From Thraustochytrium sp. TN22 (taxonomy: Eukaryota > Sar > Bigyra > Thraustochytrida > Thraustochytriidae): 64,000 nucleotides of DNA. The notes beneath the pieces are model-generated. The model saw only the letters and a list, made by a program, of their open reading frames with translations. It was not told where the DNA came from and ran no database searches. The translations under genes were made by a program, and so were the position numbers. The stretch lies in contig JABLUY010000132.1 in assembly GCA_013306675.1 (NCBI GenBank), positions 37,436 to 101,435 of the forward strand, read 5' to 3'. Of the stretch, positions 20,320 to 41,982 are shown piece by piece (position 1 is the first letter of the stretch; each line of letters opens with the position of its first letter).

Positions 20320-23300
20320 TTAGTCGAGTGAACCGAGTGGTGAGGGCAGCGGCAGGCGCGGCGGCGAGGCCGGTGCGGGCTCCGCTGCAGCTGCGGGCGC
20401 GGGCTTGGATGCGGGCGCGCCTGCGTCGGCTCCGGCCACTACGGCGCGCTCGTGCAGGAGTGCCTCGATCAACTTGGACTTGCGGTCGTCCTCACGCTGA
20501 AGCCAGGCGATAATGTTGAAGGCCTCGCGCTGGATGCTCATCTTGTCCTCGTTGAACTGGTTGCGTTCCACACTGAGCTGCGAGATGACTGCGCTTTTGC
20601 GCTCAACAACCTCAAGTGCGCGACGACGCTCGCTCTGCGCCTCGCGCAGCGCAGCGCTGATGGCCGCCATCTGCTGCTGCAGCTCACGCGCGGCAGGCGC
20701 ATCCGTAATCTGCGCGGACTCCTTGTCGTCGCTGAGGATGACCGCCTCAAGCGACTCAATGGTGTGGTCGCGCTCCGAGACCGCGGCCTCGAGGTGCTCG
20801 ATCTGTGCGAGCAGGTCTTGCTGCATGACGGCCGCCTCCTGGTCGTCCTCTAGCCCCGCCCCGCTGTGCCCAACGGCGGCGGCGGCGGCCTGCGAGGCCA
20901 CGTCGTGGCCGTTCAACGAGGCAGACATGCGCAGCGCCGAGACGGCACCGAGCGCAACGCGCAGCGAGCTGCGCAGCGAGGCATTCTGGTGCGCGGCGGT
21001 GCGCAAGAGCGCCGTGGCGGTCTTCCGTGTGTGCAACGCGTGCTTGCGCCAGGAGCGCGCTTCAACCAGGACACGGAGCTCGGCACAGAGCGCTGCACGC
21101 GTGGAGGCGGCGGCCTGAATCTGGAAGGCGTCCATGTCCTGCTCGAGCTGGTTGAAGCGGTGGGCCATATCGATCGCCTCGCGCTTGAGCGCGCGCTTGT
21201 CCCGGTTCGCCTCGTCCGCCAGCGAGGCCAGGCGCGTCTCGAGCTCGGCGCGTACGCGGCCGGGCTCCGCGGCCGACGCCGTGAGCTGCGCGCGCACCTG
21301 CTCCAGCTGGAGCGCCTGCTGCTGCAGCTGCGTAGAATAGGCCGCCGCAGCGCAGGCAGCCTGCGCAGCGATCATCTCCTTGTCCCGCTGAAGGGCGGCA
21401 GCGCGCGCTTCCGCGTCGCGGCACGCCACCACCGCGGCAGTCTCCTTGGACTCGGCGCCGAGCTGCTGCCGGCGAGCGCCCTCTTGAAGCTGATCGATCT
21501 GAAGCTGCTGTTCCTCAAGCTGGCCGCGCATCTGCGTGATAATGTCGCGCTGCTTGGCGAGCTCGTCCTGCGCGAGCGCCAGTGCGCGCTGCTTCTCCTT
21601 CGACTCCTGCACCAGCGACTTGATCGTGTCACCCTTGCCAACAGTCTCGGAGGCGAGGATGTTGATCAGCCGCGCCTTGGCGCGGTTGTCCCGCTGCAGC
21701 TTGCTTGAGAGCGACTCCGAGATGCCGCTATACACGTTGTACGGCTCATCCTCGCCATCCTCGCCATCCTCTTCGTCGTCCTCGTCGTCGTCGTCCTCGT
21801 CCTCGTCCTCGTCTGCCGCCTCGAGACCGGTGAGGTGCGCGCGTGCGCGCTCTTCGCAGCTCCAGGAGGCGAACGCGTCGGCGTCCTCGGAGAGGTCGAC
21901 AATGGTGGCCGCGGCGGCGCCGGGGTATCCGGCGCCGCCCGAGTTGCGCGCAGCGCGAGGCGTGGGGGATGAGCCCCGCCTGGCAGCAGCTTGCGCCGCA
22001 ACGGCGGCGGCGGTCACCGAGGTGGCGAGCATGACATCCTGGTGCGCTGCAGCGCTAGCGAAATCCGTTTCTGCGTCCGTGAGCGCCAGCGACTTGACGT
22101 CGACACTGGCCAGCGTGGAGAAGGTCTGGCGCGACGTCACGCTCAGGGAGTCCTGCGCGTCCATGGCGCCCAGGTCTTGCTGCTGGTTTTGGTTCTTCTT
22201 CCCGCCATGGCGGAGTGCGCTGAAGCCTCCCATGGACATGGACATGGCCCGCGGTCCGCCGCTGCTGCGACGACGCTGCTTGTCGCGGCGCACGTTGCCG
22301 CAGAACTCGAGCGCGGCGAGCGTGGAGACCGAGTCGTCGAGCGAGTCGCTGACGGTGGCCATGAGCACGACGCGCGAAGGCTGCAGCAGCGTGGGCTGCA
22401 GTAGCCGCGTGAGCTTGGAGTCCCGAAAAGGGACGTGCGAGCCGCGGCTTGTCGCTGCAGCGAGCGCGCCCATGACCTTTTCCAGCGCCAGGCGCGACTT
22501 CTTGCACGATCGCTGCTCCTGCGCGTCGCCGATCTGCGAGTCCGCCAGGTCCACGAGGTCTACCGCGCAGTTTTCGCCCCACGCCAGCGAGACGACCAGG
22601 TGCGAGAGGTAGCCCCCGCGCTGAGCCGCGGCGGTGGTGCTGCTGGCCGCGCGCACGCGGCGGCGGCGACGGAGCAGCGTCGCCACGAGCTGCTGCGCGT
22701 CCTCGAGGGAACGGGCCTTGACGCTGGCGCCCAGCGACGAGAGCACCTGATCCTCTGGCGTTTCGGGCGCCAGAAGGTCGCGTGCGGTCTCCTTGTAGAC
22801 CTCCACGCCCGAGACGCGGAGCGCGCCGTTCTTGCCGGCCTCCGCCAGGCAGGCCTCGGCCAGGCGGCACAGCGTCCACGCGAGATCCTCGCGGCGCACA
22901 GTACTGCCCTGTAGCATGACCAGACCCGTGCGCCGCAGCGCCTGCGATGCCTGCACGACCGGGAGCACCTCGCGCTCGAAGACCGCCTCGAGGTCCTCCT
23001 GCGCCTGTGCCGGGTGCGGCGCCACACCCGAGACCGTGTCCGCCTCGAAAACGCGAAAGCCCGATCTCAAGGTACCCGGTCCGCAGATGGTCACGCACGC
23101 CTTCTCACCCATGGCCGACGCGCGGCGCGCCGCATGGCCCAGCTTGCTGCGGCGTCGAGGGGAGAGCCCGCCGCCGCCCCCCTCGAGCTCCTTGGCCTCC
23201 GAGACGTCGTCATCCTTTTCCTCGCCCGTCAGCCAGGCACGCGCCGTCGGGTCTGAGCCGCGCCGCCCCCACGCCGCGACCTCGCGCGCCACGGACCCGG

Positions 23301-23331
23301 GCGCCACGCGCACCACCACCTGCACGTTCAT
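20320..23331 (-). CDS. Kinesin-like protein with degenerate motor domain
   Basis: 1003 residues. It opens with a kinesin beta-1 strand (MNVQVVVRVAP). HVPFRDSKLTRLLQPTL near 300 and VLMATVSDSLDDSVSTLAAL with EFCGNVRR are the hallmark switch II helix and following motor elements. The nucleotide site is not intact: the P-loop position reads LQGSTVRRED instead of GQTGSGKT, the switch I serines give TTAAAQRGGYLSH, and switch II reads DLADSQ rather than DLAGSE. About 550-950 is largely coiled coil, after an acidic Asp/Glu run (about 508-535). It is probably a non-hydrolysing or ADP-independent kinesin relative. Fold assignment is fairly sure; inactivity is inferred. Confidence 0.75.
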   Translation of the reverse strand: MNVQVVVRVAPGSVAREVAAWGRRGSDPTARAWLTGEEKDDDVSEAKELEGGGGGLSPRRRSKLGHAARRASAMGEKACVTICGPGTLRSGFRVFEADTVSGVAPHPAQAQEDLEAVFEREVLPVVQASQALRRTGLVMLQGSTVRREDLAWTLCRLAEACLAEAGKNGALRVSGVEVYKETARDLLAPETPEDQVLSSLGASVKARSLEDAQQLVATLLRRRRRVRAASSTTAAAQRGGYLSHLVVSLAWGENCAVDLVDLADSQIGDAQEQRSCKKSRLALEKVMGALAAATSRGSHVPFRDSKLTRLLQPTLLQPSRVVLMATVSDSLDDSVSTLAALEFCGNVRRDKQRRRSSGGPRAMSMSMGGFSALRHGGKKNQNQQQDLGAMDAQDSLSVTSRQTFSTLASVDVKSLALTDAETDFASAAAHQDVMLATSVTAAAVAAQAAARRGSSPTPRAARNSGGAGYPGAAAATIVDLSEDADAFASWSCEERARAHLTGLEAADEDEDEDDDDEDDEEDGEDGEDEPYNVYSGISESLSSKLQRDNRAKARLINILASETVGKGDTIKSLVQESKEKQRALALAQDELAKQRDIITQMRGQLEEQQLQIDQLQEGARRQQLGAESKETAAVVACRDAEARAAALQRDKEMIAAQAACAAAAYSTQLQQQALQLEQVRAQLTASAAEPGRVRAELETRLASLADEANRDKRALKREAIDMAHRFNQLEQDMDAFQIQAAASTRAALCAELRVLVEARSWRKHALHTRKTATALLRTAAHQNASLRSSLRVALGAVSALRMSASLNGHDVASQAAAAAVGHSGAGLEDDQEAAVMQQDLLAQIEHLEAAVSERDHTIESLEAVILSDDKESAQITDAPAARELQQQMAAISAALREAQSERRRALEVVERKSAVISQLSVERNQFNEDKMSIQREAFNIIAWLQREDDRKSKLIEALLHERAVVAGADAGAPASKPAPAAAAEPAPASPPRLPLPSPLGSLD

Positions 23332-27054: not shown

Positions 27055-29391
27055 TCATTCGGCACTCGCTCGCCGCAGTCCTACAGGACTACGATCACGT
27101 GCGCCTGCCGCACGAGCGGCCGGCTTGGCAGTAAGCCGCTGCTCAACGGCACGTGTCTCCCGCCGCTCGACAGCTCGCCGGCCGAGCTTGTAATGCTCCG
27201 CGAGTTGCTTGGCCAGGCCCAGCCTGCGTTGTGTCCCGGAGACGGTGGGATTCGAGCGTCCTTCATGGGCCTTAAGCTGTGCTGCCTCAATGAGCAGCGG
27301 CGGCTCGTCTAGAAAAAGGGCCGACAGTCGACCACCACCCACTGCCACGATGATAGGATCTCTGGTGCTGTCCCCGACGTCGATACAGTGATTGTGCAGT
27401 GCGGCCGCGCAATATATGATGTTGGCGCAGTCTGTGAGGTTTCGAAAGCACACCGCGGACTGAAAGAGAGCCCACCTGTTCTTGAAGATGCCAAAAGCGC
27501 ATTCCACGCTGGACCGAATCCCTGAGAGGCGGACATTGAACGCTTGCGCCTCGTCCGTCGAGAGGCCCTGCTCTACGTGACGGCTGTACTGCCTGAATGG
27601 GATAATGACGTTCTCCGTGAGGGAGTAGCCACCATCCGCCACGAACCAGTACTGACCTAGATCAGGCTTCGCCCGTTCTAGCCAAGAGCCGAGAGGGCTC
27701 AAGGAGAACGCCAGTGCGTCGTTGGTTCCTCCTGGAGTCTTGACGTCGAACATGGTGAAGCGGCGAGTCGCGTCGACACAAGCTTGCACGTTGACTGTAA
27801 ACTTGGGTGTCTTGTGGTTGCAAAGGGCACGGTCGTTGACCGTGTCGATCTGGCGCTCGACTTCGAGAAGCATACCATCGATGGCACCAATGCAGCCTTG
27901 CATGGGCTTGTCTCTGCCCCCCTCTTTGGCGCAGGCGTTGAAGCCCGCGGCCAAGCCCGCTCTCTTCTCCTCGTTATCGAAAGCCGAGACACCATCAGGG
28001 ATGAACTTGTGACGCAGCTGAGCGATGAGATCTCGGCCCTCACTCACATTTTTGGTGGCGGTAGACGCGCTGATGTTCATCACCAAGCCAATGATGTGAG
28101 CGTCGCGACCTGCACAGTAGAGGATCACGCACGCGATGATACAGATCGGCTCGCAGAAGCCACGGCCAGCGCTGGTTGCCTTGCTCCGTGGGAAAATCTC
28201 GCGGAGATCCTCGCCTTCAACGAGGCGAGCGAAGAAGCTCTCCACATCCTTCGGGTGCATGCGAAAGACACCACGGAAGAAGTCGCGCCGCTTCTGCTTC
28301 ACCTCGTCCCATGTGAACGGAGCAGAATCCTTCTGCAGATCGTCGTCTCCTGTGCTGGCTGCCTCCTCTTCCTCCCGATAGAGTGCCACAAGTCCCCGCG
28401 CCAGTTGGCACTGATCTTCGTTGAATGCCGCGTAGCCTCTGTCCACAGCTTTACCCCGGATCCGGACCTGGTCATAGCGTTCCTTCGCGATCCGAATGCT
28501 CACCAATAGACGATCTCTACTTGCCGCAAGTTCGGCAGGCTCGTTTTCCTGGTCGTCTCGCTGGAACGTGGACATGATGCTATGCCAAAGTTCGTCTTCT
28601 TCCTCGTCTGAATCTGACCCCGCCATGCAGCTCTCATCCGTGAGCAAGCAGTCAGCCAGAGCCGAGCTCTGTAGGACCTTGCCGTCCAAAACTGCTTGCG
28701 CGTCCATGCAGGCGGCCATGAGCAAGTCCTCACCCAAGTATGGAGAGCTGCTGCCAGGGTTGAGGGCGCTGCTCCCGATGAGATCTCTGGCAGATATCCC
28801 AAGCAATTCTGTGCCGCTGCTCCCGATGAGATCTCTGGCAGATATCCCAAGCAATTCTGTGCCGCTGCTCCCGATGAGATCGCTGGCAGACATCCCAAGC
28901 AATTCTGTGCAGCCCTGGGACTTGGCCCCCGCGTTGAGGTCCGTGCGGTCGCCGCTTCGCGCCTTGTTGCGGCAGACATCGCTGCCGTCGTAGCCAAGAA
29001 GCTCGGCCTTGATGCTGGCGACACTAGCTCCTTGCCCAAGTCCCACCGCGTAGAGGTCCGTGCGGTCGCCGCTTCGCGCCTTGTTGCGGTAGACATCGCT
29101 GCCGTCGTAGCCAAGAAGCTCGGCCTTGATGCTGGCGACACTAGCTCCTTGCCCAAGTCCCACCGCGTAGAGGTCCGTGCGGTCGCCGCTTCGCGCCTTG
29201 TTGCGGTAGACATCGCTGCCGTCGTAGCCAAGAAGCTCGGCCTTGATGCTGGCGACACTAGCTCCTTGCCCTACGTGAGCGGCATCCAACACGTTTGTGC
29301 CACGCAGCAGCGACAACTGGCCTCCAGGACGGTCCGTTCCGCCGCCCCCCGCTGCGCCCGGTTGCGCCGCACCTCCATCGCGCGACATCAC
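27055..29391 (-). CDS. PIF/Harbinger (HARBI1-like) DDE transposase
   Basis: 778 residues. The C-terminal half matches the DDE_Tnp_4 nuclease of HARBI1: CIGAIDGMLLEV (D505), YWFVADGGYSLTENVI (D586) and SSVECAFGIFKNRWALFQ (E630), so the acidic triad is complete. A helical region at about 300-430 would correspond to the DNA-binding part. The first 200 residues are unusual: three tandem copies of a 39-residue unit (GQGASVASIKAELLGYDGSD...) and three of a 16-residue unit (GTELLGISARDLIGSS). An acidic DSDEEEDELW patch follows. The protein should cut and join the element ends. The intact frame suggests recent activity. The ATG at 29391 is the first in frame. Confidence 0.85.
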   Translation of the reverse strand: MMSRDGGAAQPGAAGGGGTDRPGGQLSLLRGTNVLDAAHVGQGASVASIKAELLGYDGSDVYRNKARSGDRTDLYAVGLGQGASVASIKAELLGYDGSDVYRNKARSGDRTDLYAVGLGQGASVASIKAELLGYDGSDVCRNKARSGDRTDLNAGAKSQGCTELLGMSASDLIGSSGTELLGISARDLIGSSGTELLGISARDLIGSSALNPGSSSPYLGEDLLMAACMDAQAVLDGKVLQSSALADCLLTDESCMAGSDSDEEEDELWHSIMSTFQRDDQENEPAELAASRDRLLVSIRIAKERYDQVRIRGKAVDRGYAAFNEDQCQLARGLVALYREEEEAASTGDDDLQKDSAPFTWDEVKQKRRDFFRGVFRMHPKDVESFFARLVEGEDLREIFPRSKATSAGRGFCEPICIIACVILYCAGRDAHIIGLVMNISASTATKNVSEGRDLIAQLRHKFIPDGVSAFDNEEKRAGLAAGFNACAKEGGRDKPMQGCIGAIDGMLLEVERQIDTVNDRALCNHKTPKFTVNVQACVDATRRFTMFDVKTPGGTNDALAFSLSPLGSWLERAKPDLGQYWFVADGGYSLTENVIIPFRQYSRHVEQGLSTDEAQAFNVRLSGIRSSVECAFGIFKNRWALFQSAVCFRNLTDCANIIYCAAALHNHCIDVGDSTRDPIIVAVGGGRLSALFLDEPPLLIEAAQLKAHEGRSNPTVSGTQRRLGLAKQLAEHYKLGRRAVERRETRAVEQRLTAKPAARAAGARDRSPVGLRRASAE
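28769..28912. repeat. 48-bp tandem repeat within the transposase gene
   Basis: Three near-identical 48-bp units containing gctcccgatgagatc and atcccaagcaattctgt encode three GTELLGISARDLIGSS copies. Copies keep frame, and the few changes are consistent with recent amplification. Confidence 0.85.
28936..29271. repeat. 117-bp tandem repeat within the transposase gene
   Basis: Units begin at 28936, 29053 and 29170 (exact 117-bp period) and encode a 39-residue repeat. DNA identity between copies is nearly complete by eye, including synonymous positions, which points to very recent duplication or gene conversion. Confidence 0.9.
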
Positions 29392-29802: not shown

Positions 29803-32800
29803 TCAGAGCCTGCACGAGGAGGACTGCACGAGGCGCAGGTAGGCCTTGGCCAAGAGCGTGCGACGCGGTTGGTCGTCCGTGGTCTGGATCGCGTTGAAGA
29901 GAATTTCCACGAGCTCCTGGCGGGTCAGTCGCGCCGCCTGCAGCGTGGGCCTGACGTCACTTTCGCCGTCCTCCTCGTCCGTCTCTTTGAGCGCCTGGAG
30001 CTGGCGCTCGTCAAGCGGGGCACGCTCGATGATGTCGACGGACTCGTCGAGCGCCACGGCAAATACTGGGAGCGGCGCGGCCTTGAGCGAGGCGAAGAGC
30101 AACTTGGCTAGGACGGGGCCGTCCTGGCGGAACTTGGGACGACCGGCGATGCGGTCATCGATCGCCAGCATGAGGCGCTGCAGCGCCATGAGCGCGAGCG
30201 GCTGCGCGCGCTGGTCGTGCTGTGAGGACAAGGCCGACAGCGTCGATCCAAACGCGAAGGACAGCGTACGCGTCGACGTGGCATGCGGGTGCGCGTCGAT
30301 GGCGGCCTCGAGGTAGCTGGGGATGACGGCCAGGCCGAGCGGAGGCGGGCCCAGGTGGTTGGCGCGCGATGCCTCGCTCGCCGTCTGTGACTCGGCGTGC
30401 GCGCGCACCATGTCGGTGATCCAGCGGTGCGCGCGCAGGTTCAGGTGCACGAACGGGTGCGCGACGCCCACTTGCAGGAGCAGCGCAGCCAAGGCGGCAC
30501 TGGAGGCGACCTGGTCATGCAGCCAGGCCTCACCCGAGTCCAGCAAAAACTCGAGGCGACCGGCGAGCGCCCAGTCGAAGAGCTGCTTGCGCGGATCCTC
30601 CTCCACAGGCGCCGTCCTGGCGCGCGGGTCCGCGGCGCTTCGCAGGTCCTGGTCGCTGTCCGCGCCCTGGTCCAGCGAGACGCCCAGAAGTTCCAGCAGT
30701 GCCGCGGCGGCCGACGCGTCGCCAACATCCTCGCGCAGCTTGCGCTTGAGCAGGTCCTCCAGGTTCACCGTGTCCTGAACGCGTACCTGAAAGGCGTTCA
30801 AGTTTGCGAGCGCGTCCCAGACGAGCATCCAGTCCTCGGTCTGCGGTACCGCCTTGCCGCCCACCACCACCACAGTCAGGTAGCCCATCTGCAGCAGGCG
30901 CGCGAGCTCGGCGTGCACACCGAGATCGACGGGCGCCTGCGATTGCGCCGCCTCCTCTCCCTCGCCCTGGGCCGGCGCGACTTCGCCCGTGCCGTAGAGC
31001 GCCAGAATTGTGCGCCGCGCCAGCACGCCCGTCAGGCCGGCATCTCCGCGGCACAGGCCGTGCACGTGCGCCGAGAAGCTGTGCACGCGGCGCGTGAGCC
31101 AGGTGGCGCGCGCCTCCTGCGCGTCGGCCTTGCCGACCAACATGGACACGAGCTGGGGCGCGAGCTTGAAGATCTCACGCTCCGTGTGTGCGCGCGCCGC
31201 AGTGGAGCGCGCGTCCAGCGAGTCGGCGGGGCGCGCCAAAAAGAAGCCGCCGAGCGCCTCGTTCCACAGGCACTCCGCGACCGACCACAGCATGGGGTCG
31301 CTCCATGCCACCTGTGTATCGGCGTACACGATGGCGCAGCCGACGCGCGAGGCGAGCGTCTTGTCCTCGAGCCGGGACGCCTTGCGCGCCAGCTTGCGAA
31401 AGCCGGCTTCGAGCCGCGGCTGCGGGCTGCGCTCCACGTCGTTGGCCCACGCATAGTCCGGCGCGCCGCGGAGCAGGCCAGCCGCCGCAAAGGCAGCGGC
31501 GGCCGGCGCCAGGCCGTGGCGTGCCGCCGACATGTGCTCGAGCGTCTTGACGATGGCAGGCTCGGTCGCCTCCTTCATGGGCTGGAAGGCAGCGGCCGGG
31601 CTGAAGTGCCCGTGCACGGCACGCGCCAAAAGCATGCCGTGCTCCACGTCAAGGTCGCCCGAGGGCGTGTCGCGCCAGACACGCAGCAACGACTCGAGCA
31701 CCTCCTCGCAGGAGATGAAGTGCAGGTTGATCTGTTGCATCTGGTCCAAGCCCTCCTTGGCGAAGCGATTGATCTGCGACGCGCGCGCCGCCAACTCAGC
31801 ACCAGACTCCAACAGCGTCTGCACGTCCGTCTCGCTCGCCGTCCCGCTGTCCGGCAGGTGGCACTGACGGAGGCCCTTGGCGACGCTGAGCGCGCTAAAG
31901 GCGATGCACGCCGGCTGCACGCGCGCCGCGCGGCTCCTGCTCAAGCAGGTGGCCAGGAGCGCGAGCGCGCGCGCACCGAAGCGCGCGGATGGCACGGCGC
32001 GGCTCTGCAGCGTCGGCAGCAGCGCCACCATGGCGTTCATGGCGCGCTGGAGCGAGTGCCCGGTCGGTTCGGCGTCCTCCGAAAGCTTGTAGCTGTCTTC
32101 GCGCAGCTGCTTGGATGGAATCGTGCACAGGTGCGAGGGCACGAGGCTGACCTTGGCGCGCACAGCGGCCTGCAGCACCTCCTCCTCCGTGAGGCCCTGC
32201 TGCTTGAGAAAGTCCACGCGGTCCTCGATGGGCGTGTCCTGCGTGTCCTTGGACTTGAGAAAGCGCGCGCCGCGCTCCACCATTTCCTCACGCACCCCGG
32301 CGCCTGGGTCCAGGCCGGCGCGCTCGAAGGCCGCGCGGATTTGCGCCTCACTCAGGCCCTTGTCGCGCAGAAATGCCCGCCGCTCCGTCGTGCTCGCGCC
32401 CGCGGTCTTTTCGTTGCGCAGAAACCGCGCGCCCTGCTCCACGAGCGCATCGTCGCTGGCGACCGGGCTCGGACCCGAAGCCGAACTCGGGCGAGGGCGC
32501 GCGTTGACCACCTCGGGCGCGCTCGGGTCCTGGCCCGCCAGCGCAAAGGCCTGCTGCACCTGGGCCTCAGTGAGGCCCTTGGAGCGCAAAAAGGCAGCGC
32601 GCTCCGCAAGGGGCGTCGCGGCGGTCTTGGGGTTGAGCAGAAAGGCCTTGCCCTGCAGCACGATCGGGTCCACAGCCTCGGCGTTCGGGTCCACCCCGGC
32701 GCGCGAAAAGGCGGCATCGACCTGCGCATCCGAAAGGCCCTTGGACGTGAGAAAAGCCCGGCGCTCCGCGACGCTGGAGCTCGCAGCCGCCTGGCTCTGC

Positions 32801-35256
32801 AAGAAGCGCGCGCCTTGTTGCACAAGCGGATCTGTCGTGTCGGCGTCCGCCTCCACGACCTGCAGGTCCTCGGGGCGCGCCTCGATGCCAGCGCGCTGCA
32901 GCGCCTCGCGGATCTCCGCAACGCTCAACTTCTCCGCGTCCTTGAGATAGCGCAGCCGGTCGGCGAGCGGTGAGCTCGCTGCGCGCGGGCTCGTCAGGAA
33001 GCGCCGCGCGCGCTCCACGCGGTCCTCCTCGCGGCCTTCGAGCGCGCGCTCGACCTGCGACTCGGTGAGAAACTTCTTCTCGCGCAGGAACTTGCGCGCT
33101 TCGGCGCTCGCGCCCGTGCGGTCCACAAAAGCCTTGCCGAGCGCCACCATGTCGCGGTCCAGCTGCACCGCGTCCAGCTCGACGCCCACCTTGGCGAAGA
33201 CCGCGACCACCTCCTCGTCGCTCAGACCCTGTTGGCGCAGAAAGACGGCCTGCTTTTGTGCGTCAAAGGTCGAGTCCTCGCTCTTCTCGGCCTTTGCCTT
33301 TTGCTCGCGCAGGAATCGCTCCGCGCGGTCCACGCGGGCGGCGCTCTGGTCGGCCGGCGCGATCGAAGCCATGGCCTCGGCATCCCACGGCAGGCCTGCT
33401 AGCGTAAAGCAGGTCTCCACCTCGTCCAAGGTGAGGCCCTTGCCCAGGAGGAAGCTGACCTTGTCGCGGTTGTCCAGGTCCTGCGTCTTGGCGTTCTGCA
33501 AGAAGCGCTCGCCTTGCTTGACGCGGCGCATCGACTCCGTCTCCTCCTTGGAGGGTGGCTTGCTCTTGCGCGCCGACGTGGAGGGCGGCTGCTGTTTCGT
33601 TCGCACCGGCTCGGGCTCGGACGCGGGCTTGCTCTCCTGCTCCTTGTCCTGAACCTCGGCGCTGGTGGGCTCCATGCTCAGGCCGGCGCTGGTGGGCGCC
33701 ATGCGCAGGCCGGCGGTGCGAATGCCGACCTGAGCGCAAGCCTCCTTGATCTCGCTGTCCGTGAGGCCCTTGGAGCGCAGATAGGCGACCTTCTCCTGGA
33801 GCGGGCGCGACTGCGCGCTGGGGTGCCGCAGAAAGGCGACCGCCTTCTTGACATTGGCGCTGCTGCCCGTGGCCGGCGCCACGTAGGTGGCGCCCGCTTC
33901 TGCGCAGGCCTTCTTAATCTCTGCCTCGTTGAGACCCTTGTCGCGCAAGAAGAGAAGCTTCTCCTCGATGCGCTTGGAGCGAACCGACGGGTGCGTGAGG
34001 AAGGAGACGCCCTTGCGCACCATGTCTTCGCGTGCAGGTTCGCTGGGCCGCTCCGCGACGGCTGCATTCTCGTCCTCGGCGCTGGCGGCGGCCGCCGCCG
34101 GCTCGGCGGGCGCGGTGGCTGGCTGCGCCTTGGGCTTTGCCGGCGGGGGCGGCGTTGCAAAGGCGGCGCGCAGATCGTCGTCGAGGTCGACCTTGGCGCG
34201 CTCGCAGGCGCGCGAAATCTCCGTGGCGGTGAGGCCCTTGGTTTTGAGAAACTCGAGGCGCTCGCGAAGCGTCTTGGACGCCATGGACTTGTGCGTGAGG
34301 AAGATGGCGCCGTTCTTGATCATGTCGTCCCGCGGCGCGCGCTCCTGGTAGTCTTCGAGTGCCGCGAGGTCCTCGGGCGTGGGCAGCGGGTCGACGCGCG
34401 CAACCTCGCATGCGCGCATCATCTCGCCATTGGTGAGGCCCTTGGACTTGAGGAAGGACAGCTTCTCCGCCAAGGGCTTGTGCTGGAGGTCCTCCATGGT
34501 CAGGAATGCCGCCCCGTTGTCCACCATGCTCTGGCGCAGCGGCTCCGTGTACATGAGCGAGGCGGGCGGCTCGACGCCCACCTGCGCGCAGGCGACGCGG
34601 ATCTCGGTGCGGTTGAGGCCCTTGGCCAGTAGGAACTGCACCTTCTCGTCGACGGACCGGTCCTGGACCTGGTCGTCCTGCAAGAAGGTGACGGCGCTGT
34701 CGATGAGCTCGTCGCGCAGCGGATCCGGCACCGGGACGCCGTCGGACGGAATGTAGGCCTGCAGGTTCTGCGCCCAGCCGCGCAAGAGACGCATGGCCTC
34801 CTCCTGCGCGCGCTCCAGGCGGTGGTCCTCACCGCGCTGGCACAGCCCGATGAGCCAGTCCACGTGCTCCAGGTCGAAGACCTGATCGGCCGACTGCAGC
34901 GCGTCGAGCACCTCCTCGAGCGCCAAGATGTCCTCGCCCTGCGACGCCTCGAAGACGCGCCGCGCGTGCTCCACGGGCTCGGTCTCCTGCAGGGTCTGCG
35001 GCGGCGCCTGCGCGGCCGTCGCGGCGACGCCGTCCTTGTCCTCGTCGTCGTCATCGGCCTTGCTCCCGCCGCCGCCGCCGCTGCCGTACGGGTCCCGCGG
35101 CGGCGCGCCGTAGCCGAGCTCCCTGCGCACAAAGGGCCTCGCCGGGTCGCGCTCCTTGGCGTCGCACGCCTCCATGCTCACGCCGGCCGCGCCGCGCGGC
35201 AGCTGCCGCTTGCGCGAGAGCCGCGCGCCGCCGCCGCTGTCGCCGTCGCGCGCCAT
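29803..35256 (-). CDS. Giant protein with about thirteen Pex14 N-terminal-like repeats
   Basis: 1817 residues. Residues 1-175 are basic, Gly-rich and acidic low complexity plus a helical part. From 179 to 1036 there are about thirteen copies of a 48-residue three-helix unit. They begin near 179, 239, 309, 409, 466, 575, 638, 700 (degenerate), 744, 808, 863, 935 and 988. The unit reads as A..FL..........ER..FL.sKGLt..EI..A...aG, for example AERRAFLTSKGLSDAQVDAA. This is the pattern of the peroxin Pex14 N-terminal domain, which binds WxxxF/Y peptides of Pex5 and Pex19 and is present once in Pex14. The remaining 780 residues are helical, possibly ARM/HEAT-like, without a recognised family. No transmembrane segment is evident. 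A scaffold for Pex5-type cargo receptors is an inference. Confidence 0.8.
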   Translation of the reverse strand: MARDGDSGGGARLSRKRQLPRGAAGVSMEACDAKERDPARPFVRRELGYGAPPRDPYGSGGGGGSKADDDDEDKDGVAATAAQAPPQTLQETEPVEHARRVFEASQGEDILALEEVLDALQSADQVFDLEHVDWLIGLCQRGEDHRLERAQEEAMRLLRGWAQNLQAYIPSDGVPVPDPLRDELIDSAVTFLQDDQVQDRSVDEKVQFLLAKGLNRTEIRVACAQVGVEPPASLMYTEPLRQSMVDNGAAFLTMEDLQHKPLAEKLSFLKSKGLTNGEMMRACEVARVDPLPTPEDLAALEDYQERAPRDDMIKNGAIFLTHKSMASKTLRERLEFLKTKGLTATEISRACERAKVDLDDDLRAAFATPPPPAKPKAQPATAPAEPAAAAASAEDENAAVAERPSEPAREDMVRKGVSFLTHPSVRSKRIEEKLLFLRDKGLNEAEIKKACAEAGATYVAPATGSSANVKKAVAFLRHPSAQSRPLQEKVAYLRSKGLTDSEIKEACAQVGIRTAGLRMAPTSAGLSMEPTSAEVQDKEQESKPASEPEPVRTKQQPPSTSARKSKPPSKEETESMRRVKQGERFLQNAKTQDLDNRDKVSFLLGKGLTLDEVETCFTLAGLPWDAEAMASIAPADQSAARVDRAERFLREQKAKAEKSEDSTFDAQKQAVFLRQQGLSDEEVVAVFAKVGVELDAVQLDRDMVALGKAFVDRTGASAEARKFLREKKFLTESQVERALEGREEDRVERARRFLTSPRAASSPLADRLRYLKDAEKLSVAEIREALQRAGIEARPEDLQVVEADADTTDPLVQQGARFLQSQAAASSSVAERRAFLTSKGLSDAQVDAAFSRAGVDPNAEAVDPIVLQGKAFLLNPKTAATPLAERAAFLRSKGLTEAQVQQAFALAGQDPSAPEVVNARPRPSSASGPSPVASDDALVEQGARFLRNEKTAGASTTERRAFLRDKGLSEAQIRAAFERAGLDPGAGVREEMVERGARFLKSKDTQDTPIEDRVDFLKQQGLTEEEVLQAAVRAKVSLVPSHLCTIPSKQLREDSYKLSEDAEPTGHSLQRAMNAMVALLPTLQSRAVPSARFGARALALLATCLSRSRAARVQPACIAFSALSVAKGLRQCHLPDSGTASETDVQTLLESGAELAARASQINRFAKEGLDQMQQINLHFISCEEVLESLLRVWRDTPSGDLDVEHGMLLARAVHGHFSPAAAFQPMKEATEPAIVKTLEHMSAARHGLAPAAAAFAAAGLLRGAPDYAWANDVERSPQPRLEAGFRKLARKASRLEDKTLASRVGCAIVYADTQVAWSDPMLWSVAECLWNEALGGFFLARPADSLDARSTAARAHTEREIFKLAPQLVSMLVGKADAQEARATWLTRRVHSFSAHVHGLCRGDAGLTGVLARRTILALYGTGEVAPAQGEGEEAAQSQAPVDLGVHAELARLLQMGYLTVVVVGGKAVPQTEDWMLVWDALANLNAFQVRVQDTVNLEDLLKRKLREDVGDASAAAALLELLGVSLDQGADSDQDLRSAADPRARTAPVEEDPRKQLFDWALAGRLEFLLDSGEAWLHDQVASSAALAALLLQVGVAHPFVHLNLRAHRWITDMVRAHAESQTASEASRANHLGPPPLGLAVIPSYLEAAIDAHPHATSTRTLSFAFGSTLSALSSQHDQRAQPLALMALQRLMLAIDDRIAGRPKFRQDGPVLAKLLFASLKAAPLPVFAVALDESVDIIERAPLDERQLQALKETDEEDGESDVRPTLQAARLTRQELVEILFNAIQTTDDQPRRTLLAKAYLRLVQSSSCRL

Positions 35257-35597: not shown

Positions 35598-38081
35598 TCA
35601 GGCCAGGCGCGCCTGGAGAAGCGCGTGCATGGCGAGAACCCAAGCGTGGAGTAGGTGCAGCAGGCGCGGGGCGTCCTGGGGCGGCGGCGTAGCTGCGGCC
35701 TTGGCGATATTGGCCAGGGCGGCGGCGCCGAGGGAGGGTACATGGGTGGTGGTGACGCTGGAGGCGAGCGCCAGGAAGTTGGGCCAGACCTTGAAGAGCG
35801 AGCGCGCGTGCTTCCAGGTGGGCTCGATGCCCACGAGCAGGCAAGCGGCGCCGATGGCCAGCATGGCATGCGTGGACGGCTTGGCGAGGTTGAGGACCTC
35901 GGCGACCTGGGACGAGGTGGCGGCGCCCAGGCTCTTGGCGGCCGCCTTGGCGCGTTCGTGCAGCGCCTGCAGCTCGAGGTAAGCGGTGGAGGGCGGCGGC
36001 CGTGCCTGGATAAAGCGCTCGTCGAGCGCCTTGGTATAGGTCTGCTCGAGCTCGCGGTCGCGCTCCGCCTTGGCCTCGAGCTGCTGCTTGGGTGGCTTGA
36101 CGAGGCGGATGCGCGTGGGCGAGGTGCTGCCGCGGCGCGCAGCGCCACCTTGGTGGCCGGGGGTGCCGCGTCCGCGCGCGCGCGTGCGCGTGCGCGAGGT
36201 GCGAGGGCGCGAGGGCGAGGCGCGCGCGCAGTTCGTGGGGCTCGGCTTGGCCATGCTTTCGCGCTGATACGCGTCAAAGCGCGCCACAAAGTAGTCGACG
36301 AAGGCGTCCTCCTCGACGACCTCGTCTTGCTCGATGTCAGCCAGGGATTCAACAAAGGGAATGGCGTGTGCGCCGATGATCTCGACGAGAACCGTGTCGC
36401 GGAGCACGTCCGCCTCGTGGCAGCGCGCGAGTGCGGTGCCGAGGCGCTCGCGAGTGGGCCTGCCGCCGTCGAGAGACTGGAAGAGCGCACGCAGCGGCGC
36501 GCGCACGTCCTCGGAAGGCCGGACGTGGAGCAGGTCGGGGCGCGGGGACGGCTCTCTGGCCAACTCGCGCACGAACTGTAGCAGACCGTGCGTCGATCGC
36601 GGCAGCTTGGTGAGCTTGTCGATGAGCGCGGTGCGCAGGCCAACGAGCGGGCGTTGGCCGGAAGTGACCTGGTCGTCCTCCGTGTCGGTCTCGTGCTCCG
36701 GCGCGGGCGCCTTGGCCGGCGCGGTGCTCTCCATGAGCGCCGCGCAAACCGAGGCGAGGTCCTTGTCGAGCAGTTCGACCATGTCGCCGACGCTCTCGGC
36801 GCGAAGGAAGGCATCGAGGCTCGCGCGGAGCTCGGTGGCATCTGCCACTCGGCGCGACGCGTCCGCAGAGTCCGCGGCTCGCTCGATCATCTCCTGTAAG
36901 CGGCCCGGCGACTCGCCATCGAGCGCCTGAACGAGGCGGCGCGCCGCGGCGCGCTGGCGCGCGGCGCTGTTCTGGCGTCGCATGCGCGGGCCGCGGGCCG
37001 GCTCTGGGCGCAGTGGGTTGGCGCGGCGGGAGCGGGCTTCGCGCTTGGCCTCGAGGCGCTGGACGAGGCGGCCGCACTCGCCATGGAAGTGGTCCTCGAT
37101 GTAGCGATGGAGCAGGCGGGACTCGTAGGCGCCCGGCTTGAAGCCGCACTCGTGCAGGGCGTCGAGCAACGGCTCGGCCGCGAGCTGGCCGTTGCCAACG
37201 TTGTCGGCGTGCATGAGCGCCTCGTCGAGCGCGTCGCGGTGCTGCGGGAGCGCGAGCCAACGCGAGAAGCGCTGCAGGCAGCGTCGCAGAAGCGCACGCT
37301 CGCCGTCCTGCGGCGAGGGCGCCGGCGAGGCGGGCGGCCGCGGCACGGGCTTGCCAAGGTAGGCGCGGGCCCACTTCATGTCGGCCTTGCGCAGGCGCGA
37401 AGCAGGCGACGGGCTGCGCGGCACCGGAACCGGAACCGGGACGACGAGGTGCTCCGGGTCCGGCAATGGCTGCGGCTGTGACTGCGACTGTGACTGTGAC
37501 TGCTGCTGCTGCTGCTGCTGCTGTGAATGCGGGTCATCGGCGTCCTGCTGCGCCGGCGCGAGCAAAGAGGCGAGGGAGGCGGCCCGTGCCTCCTCGTCGC
37601 GCTTGCGTCGCTCGCGGCGCTCCCTGTCCTTCTTTCTGCGCCAGTCGGCGAAGCGCGCCTCCGCCTGACGGCGGCGCTCGTCGCGCCTGGCGCGCTCCTC
37701 CTCGAGGCGCGCCTGCTCGAGCGCCGGGTCCGGGATCTCGCCGGACTCATGCTTGCGCTTGAGCCACTCCACAAAGACGCGCTCCGCGTTGCGCTTGCGC
37801 TCCGCCTCCTCTGCCTCCATCTCCGCGGCGCGTTGCCTGCGCAAGATGTCCTCCGACCGCATCGTGCCGAGTCCAGGCAGCCTTCCCGTCGGACACCTGT
37901 CCATGCCGCTGGCCTTGAGCCTCGCGTTGGCGGCTTCTGCCTCTCGCACGACGCGCTCCTCGTCCTCCTCCTCGCGCGTCACCAGCGGCTTGAGGCCGCG
38001 CTCGCGCCGCGGCACCAGCAGCTGCGCCCTCATCCTCTCGCGCGCCCTGCCCGAGGCCGATGTGCGCGCCGGCCCATCCAT
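35598..38081 (-). CDS. Coiled-coil, EF-hand-like protein, probably ciliary
   Basis: 827 residues. The N-terminal 200 are charged helices with AERVFVEWLKRKHESGEIPD and ARFADWRRKKDRERRERRKR, the W..K pattern of several cilium-associated coiled-coil proteins. A poly-Gln/Ser-Gln stretch (about 188-207) follows. Around 280-320 is an EF-hand-like LMHADNVGNGQLAAEPLLDA, with a second helical region near 480-600. The C-terminus has SSQVAEVLNLAKPSTHAML and then ACLLVGIEPTWKHARSLFK, which resembles the start of dynein heavy-chain stalk regions. It is head to head with CFAP161 (starts 395 bp apart), which supports a flagellar role. No single known family covers it. Confidence 0.6.
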   Translation of the reverse strand: MDGPARTSASGRARERMRAQLLVPRRERGLKPLVTREEEDEERVVREAEAANARLKASGMDRCPTGRLPGLGTMRSEDILRRQRAAEMEAEEAERKRNAERVFVEWLKRKHESGEIPDPALEQARLEEERARRDERRRQAEARFADWRRKKDRERRERRKRDEEARAASLASLLAPAQQDADDPHSQQQQQQQQSQSQSQSQPQPLPDPEHLVVPVPVPVPRSPSPASRLRKADMKWARAYLGKPVPRPPASPAPSPQDGERALLRRCLQRFSRWLALPQHRDALDEALMHADNVGNGQLAAEPLLDALHECGFKPGAYESRLLHRYIEDHFHGECGRLVQRLEAKREARSRRANPLRPEPARGPRMRRQNSAARQRAAARRLVQALDGESPGRLQEMIERAADSADASRRVADATELRASLDAFLRAESVGDMVELLDKDLASVCAALMESTAPAKAPAPEHETDTEDDQVTSGQRPLVGLRTALIDKLTKLPRSTHGLLQFVRELAREPSPRPDLLHVRPSEDVRAPLRALFQSLDGGRPTRERLGTALARCHEADVLRDTVLVEIIGAHAIPFVESLADIEQDEVVEEDAFVDYFVARFDAYQRESMAKPSPTNCARASPSRPRTSRTRTRARGRGTPGHQGGAARRGSTSPTRIRLVKPPKQQLEAKAERDRELEQTYTKALDERFIQARPPPSTAYLELQALHERAKAAAKSLGAATSSQVAEVLNLAKPSTHAMLAIGAACLLVGIEPTWKHARSLFKVWPNFLALASSVTTTHVPSLGAAALANIAKAAATPPPQDAPRLLHLLHAWVLAMHALLQARLA

Positions 38082-39624: not shown

Positions 39625-40077
39625 CTTCTTAGAACCACGCACCACCACTGTGATCTCTCAGAGAACTCGCACCTTGCTGATGGAGCTTTCGCACGAGCTT
39701 CCGCGAAATCGCACCTGGTAAGCGGGCCGCTGCGGCTGCCGCCCCGGCCTCGCCACCGAGATCACGTCTCGGCGCCTGCCAGTGGCAACCGCGCGCTCTG
39801 TAACCAATCGAACGTGCTCTAGGTAGCTAGTAGCTAGAACCTCTGGAACTGAATGCGCTGGCAGCAGGCCTACACCGCCTGGCTGCACTGCAGTGCAAAG
39901 CAGACGCCCTTCATCAACTCCGACGACTTTGGCCAGGGGCCCCGCGCGCGCGCCCGGAGCCGCCGGACGGCGCAGGCGCAGGCGCAGCAGCAGCAGCAGC
40001 GGCAGCGGCGGCGGCGGCAGCAGCAGCAGCGGCGGCCAAGGCCAAGGCCAAGGCGAAAGGGGTCTTTTCCGTCCAGC
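39625..40077. promoter_or_regulatory. Intergenic region upstream of the CTR fusion gene
   Basis: A GCCAGTGGC motif lies at 39778-39786. The frame of the next gene is open from about 39853 but translates to Gln/Arg-rich low complexity (cag/cgg repeats at about 39985-40035), so it is treated as 5' leader. Confidence 0.45.
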
Positions 40078-41982
40078 ATGAAGGTGCTCGCGTGGGCGGT
40101 GGCCGCCGCGGCGGCTGCCGTGGCCGCCGCGGCCGCGGTCGCGGACGCGGACGCGGACGGCGCGGCGCTGGCGGAGCTGCAGGTGCAGGTGGAGGAGGTG
40201 CCGTTCGCGACGCTGGTGGGCGACCTGGACGGCAGCGCCGTGCGCACGGCGCTGGTGCGCGAGGGCGCCTTCCAGGTGACGCAGGTGCCGCGGCTGGCGG
40301 CGCTGCGCGGCGAGACGCTGCGGCTCATGGTGGCGTGCATGTCGTCGATGGAGGGCGTGGCGAGCTTTCTGCTGGAGGACGAGACGGTGCGGCGCACGTT
40401 TGCGGCGGTGACGGAGCACGGGCAGCAGCACGGCCTCGGGCTGGCGGCGCACTTTGGCGGCGGCGAGCTGACCGAGGAGTGCGTGGCCTTTGAGGCGCGC
40501 GCCGCGGACCTGCGCGAGCTGGTGACGCGCGTGTCGACGCTGGTGTTTGCGCAGCTGGACGCGCTGTGCGGCACGCGGCACGGCGGCGAGACCTTTGCGC
40601 TGCACGCGAGTGGCGCGCCGTACGCGTCGGCGCAGGCGTTCCTGACGGCGGGCGCGCACCTGGAGCACTTTCACGCGTACCAGGCGAACTGCAGCAGCGC
40701 CAAGCTGAGCAGTGGCTACGCGGCGCTGGACATGCATACGGACGCCGGTCTGCTGCTGGCCGTGGTGCCCTCGTCCTTTGTGGATCCGCGGCATGGCGAC
40801 GGCGTCGCGGAGCTGCGGGATGCGGCGCCGGGCCTGGGCTTCCTCATGGAGGACGCGGCGGGCCGCGTGGGCCGTCCGGTGTTTGCGGACGGTGGCGATG
40901 TGGTGCTCTTCATGGTGGGCCAGGGCATGGCGGAGCTGGCGCACAAGTGCGTGCCGATGCGGCCCGTGCCGCACGCGCTGGTCATGCAGCCGGCATGCTC
41001 GCTTGGCTCGACCGTGGTGCGCGCCTGGTACGGGCGCATGTTCATGCCGCCTGCGGACGGCGTGAACGACGCAACGGGCCGCACCTTTGGTGAGGACCGT
41101 GCCGCCCGCGCCAGTGCGGTCTCGGCACGTGGCGAGGCCTTCGGTGCGGGCTGCATGCAGACCGCGCAGGCGCAGGGCGCCGGTGCGCTCGTGGCGCGCG
41201 ACCTGGCGGACGGCTGCGGCGCTGGCGAGTCGTACTGTTGGCACCAGTGCATGGCCTTCCCGGATGACTCCAACTGCACGAGCGAGACGGCGGACGAGGA
41301 CATTTACTGCACGAGCCCGACCGGCACGGTCTGGTCGCCTACCTCGTCGCCCTCGGAGCACTGCCCAACGTGCCAGCCGTGGTGCGCTGCCGAGCTTCCC
41401 GAGACCAACACGGAGGGCATTTGCAACGGCGCGGGGACCGTCATGTACATGTTCGGCTTCGCGTCGTCCCTTGACCCGGCAGAGAACTGCGTCACCGTGC
41501 TCTTTCCCGCCTGGACGCTGGACACGGTCGGCAAGATGGCTGGCGGCACCATTGGCGTCTTTCTCTTTGGCATTCTCGTGGAGGCCGTCGTGTGGCTGCG
41601 CCGCTACCACGTCAAGGTCCTGCGCGAGCGCCTCTCCGATCGCGTCAACATGGCCATTTACATGACCATGTATGTGCTGCAGGTCACGGCCGGCTACTTT
41701 GCCATGCTCATCGTCATGACGTACTCGGCCATTCTCTTTTGCGCCGTCATTGCCGGCCTCGCCGTCGGCCACTTTGCGCTCAACATGAACATTCGCTCCA
41801 CGGAGGGCCAGGCCGCCGATCCGTGCTGCCAGTTCACCGAGGAGATCGCGCCGGACGACCGCGCCATGCCCTCTCACCCCGTCCAGGTCAAGTCGCACCA
41901 CCATCATCACGACGTGCTCAAGCCGGATAAGGAGGCTAGCTGCTGCCATTCCAACGGCGCTGCTCACCAAGAGCTGCAGTGA
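40078..41982 (+). CDS. Secretory dioxygenase-like domain fused to a CTR copper transporter
   Basis: 634 residues. The ATG at 40078 gives a clean signal peptide (MKVLAWAVAAAAAAVAAAAA). Residues 25-330 resemble non-haem iron dioxygenases of the isopenicillin N synthase type, with LDMHTDAGLLL (His about 220, Asp about 222) and a possible distal His near 288 or 299 (AHKCVPMRPVPHALVMQ). A Cys-rich linker (about 380-460) follows. The last third is a CTR/SLC31 transporter: extracellular MYMFGF with paired Met, TM1 about 484-507, then MxxxM, exactly 12 residues, and GxxxG (about 543-564), the defining TM2-TM3 signature. The cytosolic tail has a HHHHH run and a CC pair near the end, good copper ligands. 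The CTR part is sure; the enzyme part is likely. Confidence 0.8.
   Translation: MKVLAWAVAAAAAAVAAAAAVADADADGAALAELQVQVEEVPFATLVGDLDGSAVRTALVREGAFQVTQVPRLAALRGETLRLMVACMSSMEGVASFLLEDETVRRTFAAVTEHGQQHGLGLAAHFGGGELTEECVAFEARAADLRELVTRVSTLVFAQLDALCGTRHGGETFALHASGAPYASAQAFLTAGAHLEHFHAYQANCSSAKLSSGYAALDMHTDAGLLLAVVPSSFVDPRHGDGVAELRDAAPGLGFLMEDAAGRVGRPVFADGGDVVLFMVGQGMAELAHKCVPMRPVPHALVMQPACSLGSTVVRAWYGRMFMPPADGVNDATGRTFGEDRAARASAVSARGEAFGAGCMQTAQAQGAGALVARDLADGCGAGESYCWHQCMAFPDDSNCTSETADEDIYCTSPTGTVWSPTSSPSEHCPTCQPWCAAELPETNTEGICNGAGTVMYMFGFASSLDPAENCVTVLFPAWTLDTVGKMAGGTIGVFLFGILVEAVVWLRRYHVKVLRERLSDRVNMAIYMTMYVLQVTAGYFAMLIVMTYSAILFCAVIAGLAVGHFALNMNIRSTEGQAADPCCQFTEEIAPDDRAMPSHPVQVKSHHHHHDVLKPDKEASCCHSNGAAHQELQ

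Follow-up and report, generated by a model that had tools for sequence, protein, structure and literature searches.

Pex14 has one N-terminal domain, a three-helix fold with an aromatic pocket (Pfam Pex14_N, PF04695; solved N-domains include 2w84, 3ff5 and 6s7m). According to the available part of PMC12173945, the WxxxF/Y motifs of import receptors bind this lumenal domain with high affinity, and such binding would draw cargo complexes inwards, to the matrix. The domain normally faces mainly the lumen in the accessible text of PMC12925559; the portion available of PMC11024197 calls its orientation debated and adds that FxxxF motifs of PEX19 and PEX13 are also bound by Pex14 N-domains. Yeast Pex8 (8rqt; PF26001), as described in the available part of PMC13015374, is a HEAT solenoid with a peroxisomal targeting signal of type 1 (PTS1) that guides Pex5 to Pex2-10-12; it is largely fungal, with a recent counterpart in Arabidopsis. 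Here we describe a protein, encoded by one exon in Thraustochytrium sp. TN22, that carries thirteen Pex14_N units. Its gene lies on the minus strand of a 64,000-nucleotide stretch, the window (assembly GCA_013306675.1, contig JABLUY010000132.1, positions 37,436-101,435 of the forward strand). The open reading frame including its stop (29803..35256) specifies 1817 residues: an N-terminal region, the units, a helical solenoid and an end of PTS1 type. Since thirteen putative receptor-binding domains here share one chain with an extended helical part that bears a likely signal for entry into peroxisomes, the protein suggests a mode of catching and recycling the import receptor inside peroxisomes that is so far undescribed.

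Is such a protein already on record? The part available of a 2021 survey (PMC8172628) assigns Pex14_N to PEX14/33 as their domain in a table that lists PEX8 as fungal, its two stramenopiles being Phytophthora and Thalassiosira. Among the open papers listed by our searches, no title or abstract describes Pex14_N domains in tandem or a Pex8 from labyrinthulomycetes. To that extent the preliminary description of this DNA, made from the letters alone, was right to know of no such protein; but an orthologue from the thraustochytrid Hondaea fermentalgiana is already entered in public databases, under the name ‘Peroxisomal membrane protein PEX14’. This shows that annotation pipelines have already caught the gene, but under the label ‘PEX14’.

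Thirteen Pex14_N units in one protein

The Pfam search proposed in the preliminary description matched Pex14_N to the protein in 12 stretches, with an E-value of 2.3e-100 and 328.5 bits (curated cut-off 23.2). A local hidden Markov model (HMM), seeded with ten of the protein's own units, finds 13. Both the family and the count of about thirteen had been read correctly from the letters. The array spans residues 181-1036 (window 32149-34716), with units of 40-53 residues and linkers of 4-63 residues. Because the mean identity between its units is 35%, it is no fresh duplication.

All units lie on the minus strand. Unit 1 (residues 181-228; 34573..34716) is followed by unit 2 (241-288; 34393..34536) and unit 3 (309-356; 34189..34332). 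Unit 4 (409-455; 33892..34032) is the nearest of the 13 to the unit of the genome's own canonical Pex14. Next come unit 5 (467-512; 33721..33858) and unit 6 (576-622; 33391..33531), whose model superposes on solved Pex14 N-domains. The middle of the array is degenerate: unit 7 (640-692; 33181..33339) is Pex14_N-like with an insertion, unit 8 (700-739; 33040..33159), the most degenerate, had its start placed by hand, and unit 9 (744-791; 32884..33027) is likewise only Pex14_N-like. Unit 10 (809-855; 32692..32832) is the nearest of the 13 to human PEX14. Beyond unit 11 (863-909; 32530..32670), the solved Pex14 4bxu aligns at unit 12 (936-982; 32311..32451), and the model of unit 13 (989-1036; 32149..32292) superposes on 3ff5 and 2w84.

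The predicted model of units 6-13 agrees with the three-helix Pex14 fold expected from the letters: it superposes on solved Pex14 N-domains, and the 13 top-ranked solved entries are all of this kind (VIA structure search). The pocket aromatics are kept in 13 of 13 units. Across this protein and four relatives, an aromatic occupies the F35 position in 63 of 65 units and the F52 position in 64 of 65; the K56 equivalent is gone from three of the 13 units here.

The protein shares with Pex14 the sequence family of its units, their fold and their pocket. It differs in having 12-13 units, starting at residue 181, and in lacking a Pex14-like remainder, in whose place stand a 781-residue solenoid and the PTS1-type end. 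Nor is it the organism's sole Pex14, since an ordinary single-unit Pex14, whose presence the preliminary description had left as a point to check, is a separate gene on another contig (G000:C44).

How widely is this architecture shared? A search with the array half, among the 8000 candidates sharing most words, gave four relatives of similar length: the Hondaea protein (P0001) and three unnamed proteins (P0002-P0004). In each of them the local HMM counts 13 units, some with scores as low as 0.8 bits, and the C-terminal region matches as well; Pfam finds 11, 11, 11 and 12 stretches. Of the window protein's 13 units, 12 find their best match at the same ordinal position in P0001, 13 in P0002, 9 in P0003 and 2 in P0004. 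Since unit order thus matches in P0001, P0002 and P0003, the array is, by sequence, old in three lineages. In P0004 the one-to-one correspondence fails (the diagonal count was reached in 132 of 10000 shuffles); part of its array may have been rearranged, or its units may have multiplied independently. The last 781 residues align in all five proteins, the four relatives being 68, 68, 42 and 33% identical to the window protein there. The N-terminal region (residues 1-180; 34717..35256, minus strand) is of low complexity at first, and its last ~90 residues can be aligned across all five.

The first part of P0001 corresponds to the neighbour that lies upstream of the array gene in the window (46% over 403 residues), so that the neighbourhood is conserved and the P0001 gene model probably merged with that neighbour. 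An artefact of assembly or gene modelling, whether a duplication in tandem within a single genome or a pair of genes joined, is highly improbable: the Hondaea entry is itself such a joined model, but four independent relatives have the same order of parts, three of them with 12, 13 and 9 of 13 units in correspondence, and P0002 spans the whole length without the neighbour. The neighbour itself (35598-38081, minus strand, 827 residues) has a weak CCDC34 match, at an E-value of 5e-4 and below the cut-off.

The C-terminal solenoid and the PTS1-type end

The protein ends in Cys-Arg-Leu (29806..29814, minus strand). PTS1 tripeptides follow the pattern [SAC][KRH][LM]. The five proteins end in CRL, CRL, CRL, GKL and ARL, so that four of the five fit; GKL belongs to P0003 and ARL to the most distant relative. 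Among 551 open frames of at least 100 residues in the window and the fetched loci, two have such ends, the array frame included, a figure that serves as a composition background only, most of these frames not being genes. Internal nonapeptides resembling the type 2 signal were sought across the five proteins, and none was found.

Does this organism use such signals? Its Pex5 candidate (L021, minus strand) is 58% identical to human PEX5 in the tetratricopeptide repeat (TPR) region. Three acyl-CoA oxidases end in SKL, TKL and SKL. A malate synthase likewise ends in SKL, and another malate synthase match extends past the edge of its locus. Given the TPR match and these SKL- and TKL-ended enzymes, PTS1 import looks alive. 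The genome also holds a Pex19 gene and three genes of the Pex2_Pex12 family, the RING peroxins. Pex13_N gave no match in the genome, and its control gave none either, so that this null does not show absence.

The PTS1-type tail was the ground on which a Pex8-like protein was put forward, prior to any structure or fold search. The region that precedes it (residues 1037-1817; 29806..32148, minus strand) is predicted to be all-helical, with 39 helices of at least four residues, no strands and a mean predicted local distance difference test score (pLDDT) of 64.9. Among 910 aligned PDB chains Pex8 (8rqt) ranks first, with 531 of its 621 residues aligned (model 87-776 against chain 43-706) at a root-mean-square deviation (rmsd) of 8.8; the other rows shown with at least 500 aligned residues have 13.6 or more. 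Conserved in all five proteins, carrying a PTS1-type end in four and matched structurally first by Pex8, this region gives no support to the unrelated helical stretch of the preliminary description. It is like Pex8 in its length, its helical solenoid and its C-terminal tripeptide. It differs from Pex8 in the N-terminal Pex14_N array, of which the available part of PMC13015374 gives Pex8 none, and in having no sequence similarity to it detectable by hhalign, at low power.

Several observations weigh against kinship with Pex8. The structural match is tied with other solenoids, HEAT/importin-type solenoids filling the match list; Pex8 is not in the Foldseek top 50 for this model; and neither Pfam, the protein database nor hhalign lends sequence support. 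The Pfam scan of the region gave no family for the window protein and three chance-level families, each in single relatives, but the library scanned held no PF26001 model, and empty scans therefore do not exclude Pex8. By precomputed domains PF26001 is in seven of seven Saccharomyces-type Pex8 and in none of the four relatives. A profile search of the PDB gave two chance-level matches only, and the protein database gave nothing at E ≤ 10 among 8000 scored candidates, with a length gate that also excluded the full-length relatives. Against the seven Saccharomyces-type Pex8, hhalign returned a probability of 0.1% from thin profiles (effective sequence numbers, Neff, 2.0 and 1.6). Yeast Pex8 itself fails to retrieve Pichia Pex8 from PDB sequences by phmmer or by profile (the presence of 8rqt there being unconfirmed), and its lack of a match in the Thraustochytrium genome is uninformative for the same reason. 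Because of that failure and the thin profiles, we take these sequence and profile nulls as uninformative, not as support. Within the organism's own genome the C-terminal region finds no paralogue but itself at E ≤ 1. The hydropathy peak within the solenoid is 1.66; the organism's canonical Pex14 peaks at just 0.98, and the scan thus does not discriminate membrane segments.

A proposed receptor trap on the matrix side

What might such a protein do? The reading we favour, with a probability of a little over one half, is that of a matrix-side, Pex8-like peroxin, whose thirteenfold Pex5-binding array traps the receptor and delivers it to the ligase of the export step. Judging from its tail, the protein would itself be imported by Pex5 through the C-terminal PTS1. 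The domain identity and pocket residues of the 13 units suggest that they would then bind aromatic motifs in the disordered N-terminal part of Pex5. Beside the single lumenal domain of ordinary Pex14 they could form a soluble, high-avidity landing array, pulling receptor and cargo inwards and collecting receptors. Finally, as the structural match and the PTS1 lead us to suppose, the solenoid would act like Pex8, docking near the Pex2/Pex10/Pex12 ligase and threading the N-terminus of Pex5 into the export pore. We propose that in its mode of action the protein resembles Pex8 joined to a multiplied lumenal domain of Pex14, and we place it in neither family.

A stronger form of this idea falls somewhat short of even odds: a true labyrinthulomycete Pex8 in which the lumenal domain of Pex14 has been taken up and multiplied, giving a soluble trap, 13-valent for the receptor, that serves as an avidity ratchet for import. 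If true, a single imported polypeptide with a PTS1 would both draw Pex5 inwards and hand it over to the export ligase. Two open questions, what draws Pex5 inwards and how it reaches the export pore, would be addressed together, the two steps being physically linked. Pex8-like function would extend to the stramenopiles, and the lumenal-sink model would become directly testable through unit number. The Arabidopsis PEX8 is reportedly that of Buck et al. 2025.

The N-terminal part of the Pex5 candidate contains 11 Trp, one WxxxF/Y motif (WINDF) and a few other aromatic pairs. A pairing of one Pex5 motif with each unit, 13 with 13, was dropped, WxxxF/Y being found at just one of the 11 Trp. The remaining Trp resemble W..E/D/Q motifs that lack the second aromatic.

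If the solenoid were unrelated to Pex8, the protein could still reside in the matrix and bind Pex5 through its multivalent array, serving as a receptor sink, a buffer or a matrix-enzyme scaffold with no hand-over to the ligase. The array and the PTS1-type end would fit this equally, and the weaknesses of the Pex8 match speak for it. Yet Pex8 ranks first of 910 chains after being proposed beforehand from the tail, and its rmsd is by far the lowest among the rows shown with at least 500 aligned residues. We regard this alternative as unlikely, although it is the strongest competitor to the Pex8-like reading.

Could the protein instead be a cytosolic, multivalent docking scaffold for Pex5, its C-terminal tripeptide accidental or buried? 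The array and its pocket residues would serve there too, and which way the Pex14 N-domain faces is under debate (PMC11024197 and PMC12925559, in the parts available). Such tripeptides, however, end four of the five proteins against two of 551 open frames, and the latest work cited puts the N-domain mainly in the lumen (available text of PMC12173945 and PMC12925559). We favour the matrix side because the C-terminal region is conserved, four of the five ends are of PTS1 type and Pex8 is the top structural match; a cytosolic scaffold seems to us decidedly doubtful. Of the preliminary idea of a multivalent partner for Pex5-like receptors, the binding part fits the kept pocket aromatics and the Trp-rich N-part of the organism's own Pex5, as far as sequence can tell; the evidence points to the matrix side rather than to a scaffold in the cytosol.

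Still less probable is a re-use of the fold outside peroxisomes, in the cilium, on microtubules or elsewhere, or as a hub for PEX19 or PEX13. The loss of the K56 equivalent in three of 13 units would suit such a role, as would the binding of PEX19 and PEX13 FxxxF motifs by Pex14 N-domains (PMC11024197, in part), but the PTS1-type tail and the kept pocket aromatics argue against it. The cilium, raised in the preliminary description, finds no echo here, the Pfam scan having shown no ciliary domain and nothing else observed pointing there.

Other genes of the window

Directly downstream of the array gene lies an open frame resembling a DDE_Tnp_4 transposase (27055-29391, minus strand), whose tandem repeats, close to the N-terminus, are nearly identical to one another. 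A frame of 709 residues (39853-41982, plus strand) matches the Ctr copper transporter over a C-terminal portion, and one of 1003 residues (20320-23331, minus strand) contains a kinesin motor domain (E-value 4.5e-19).
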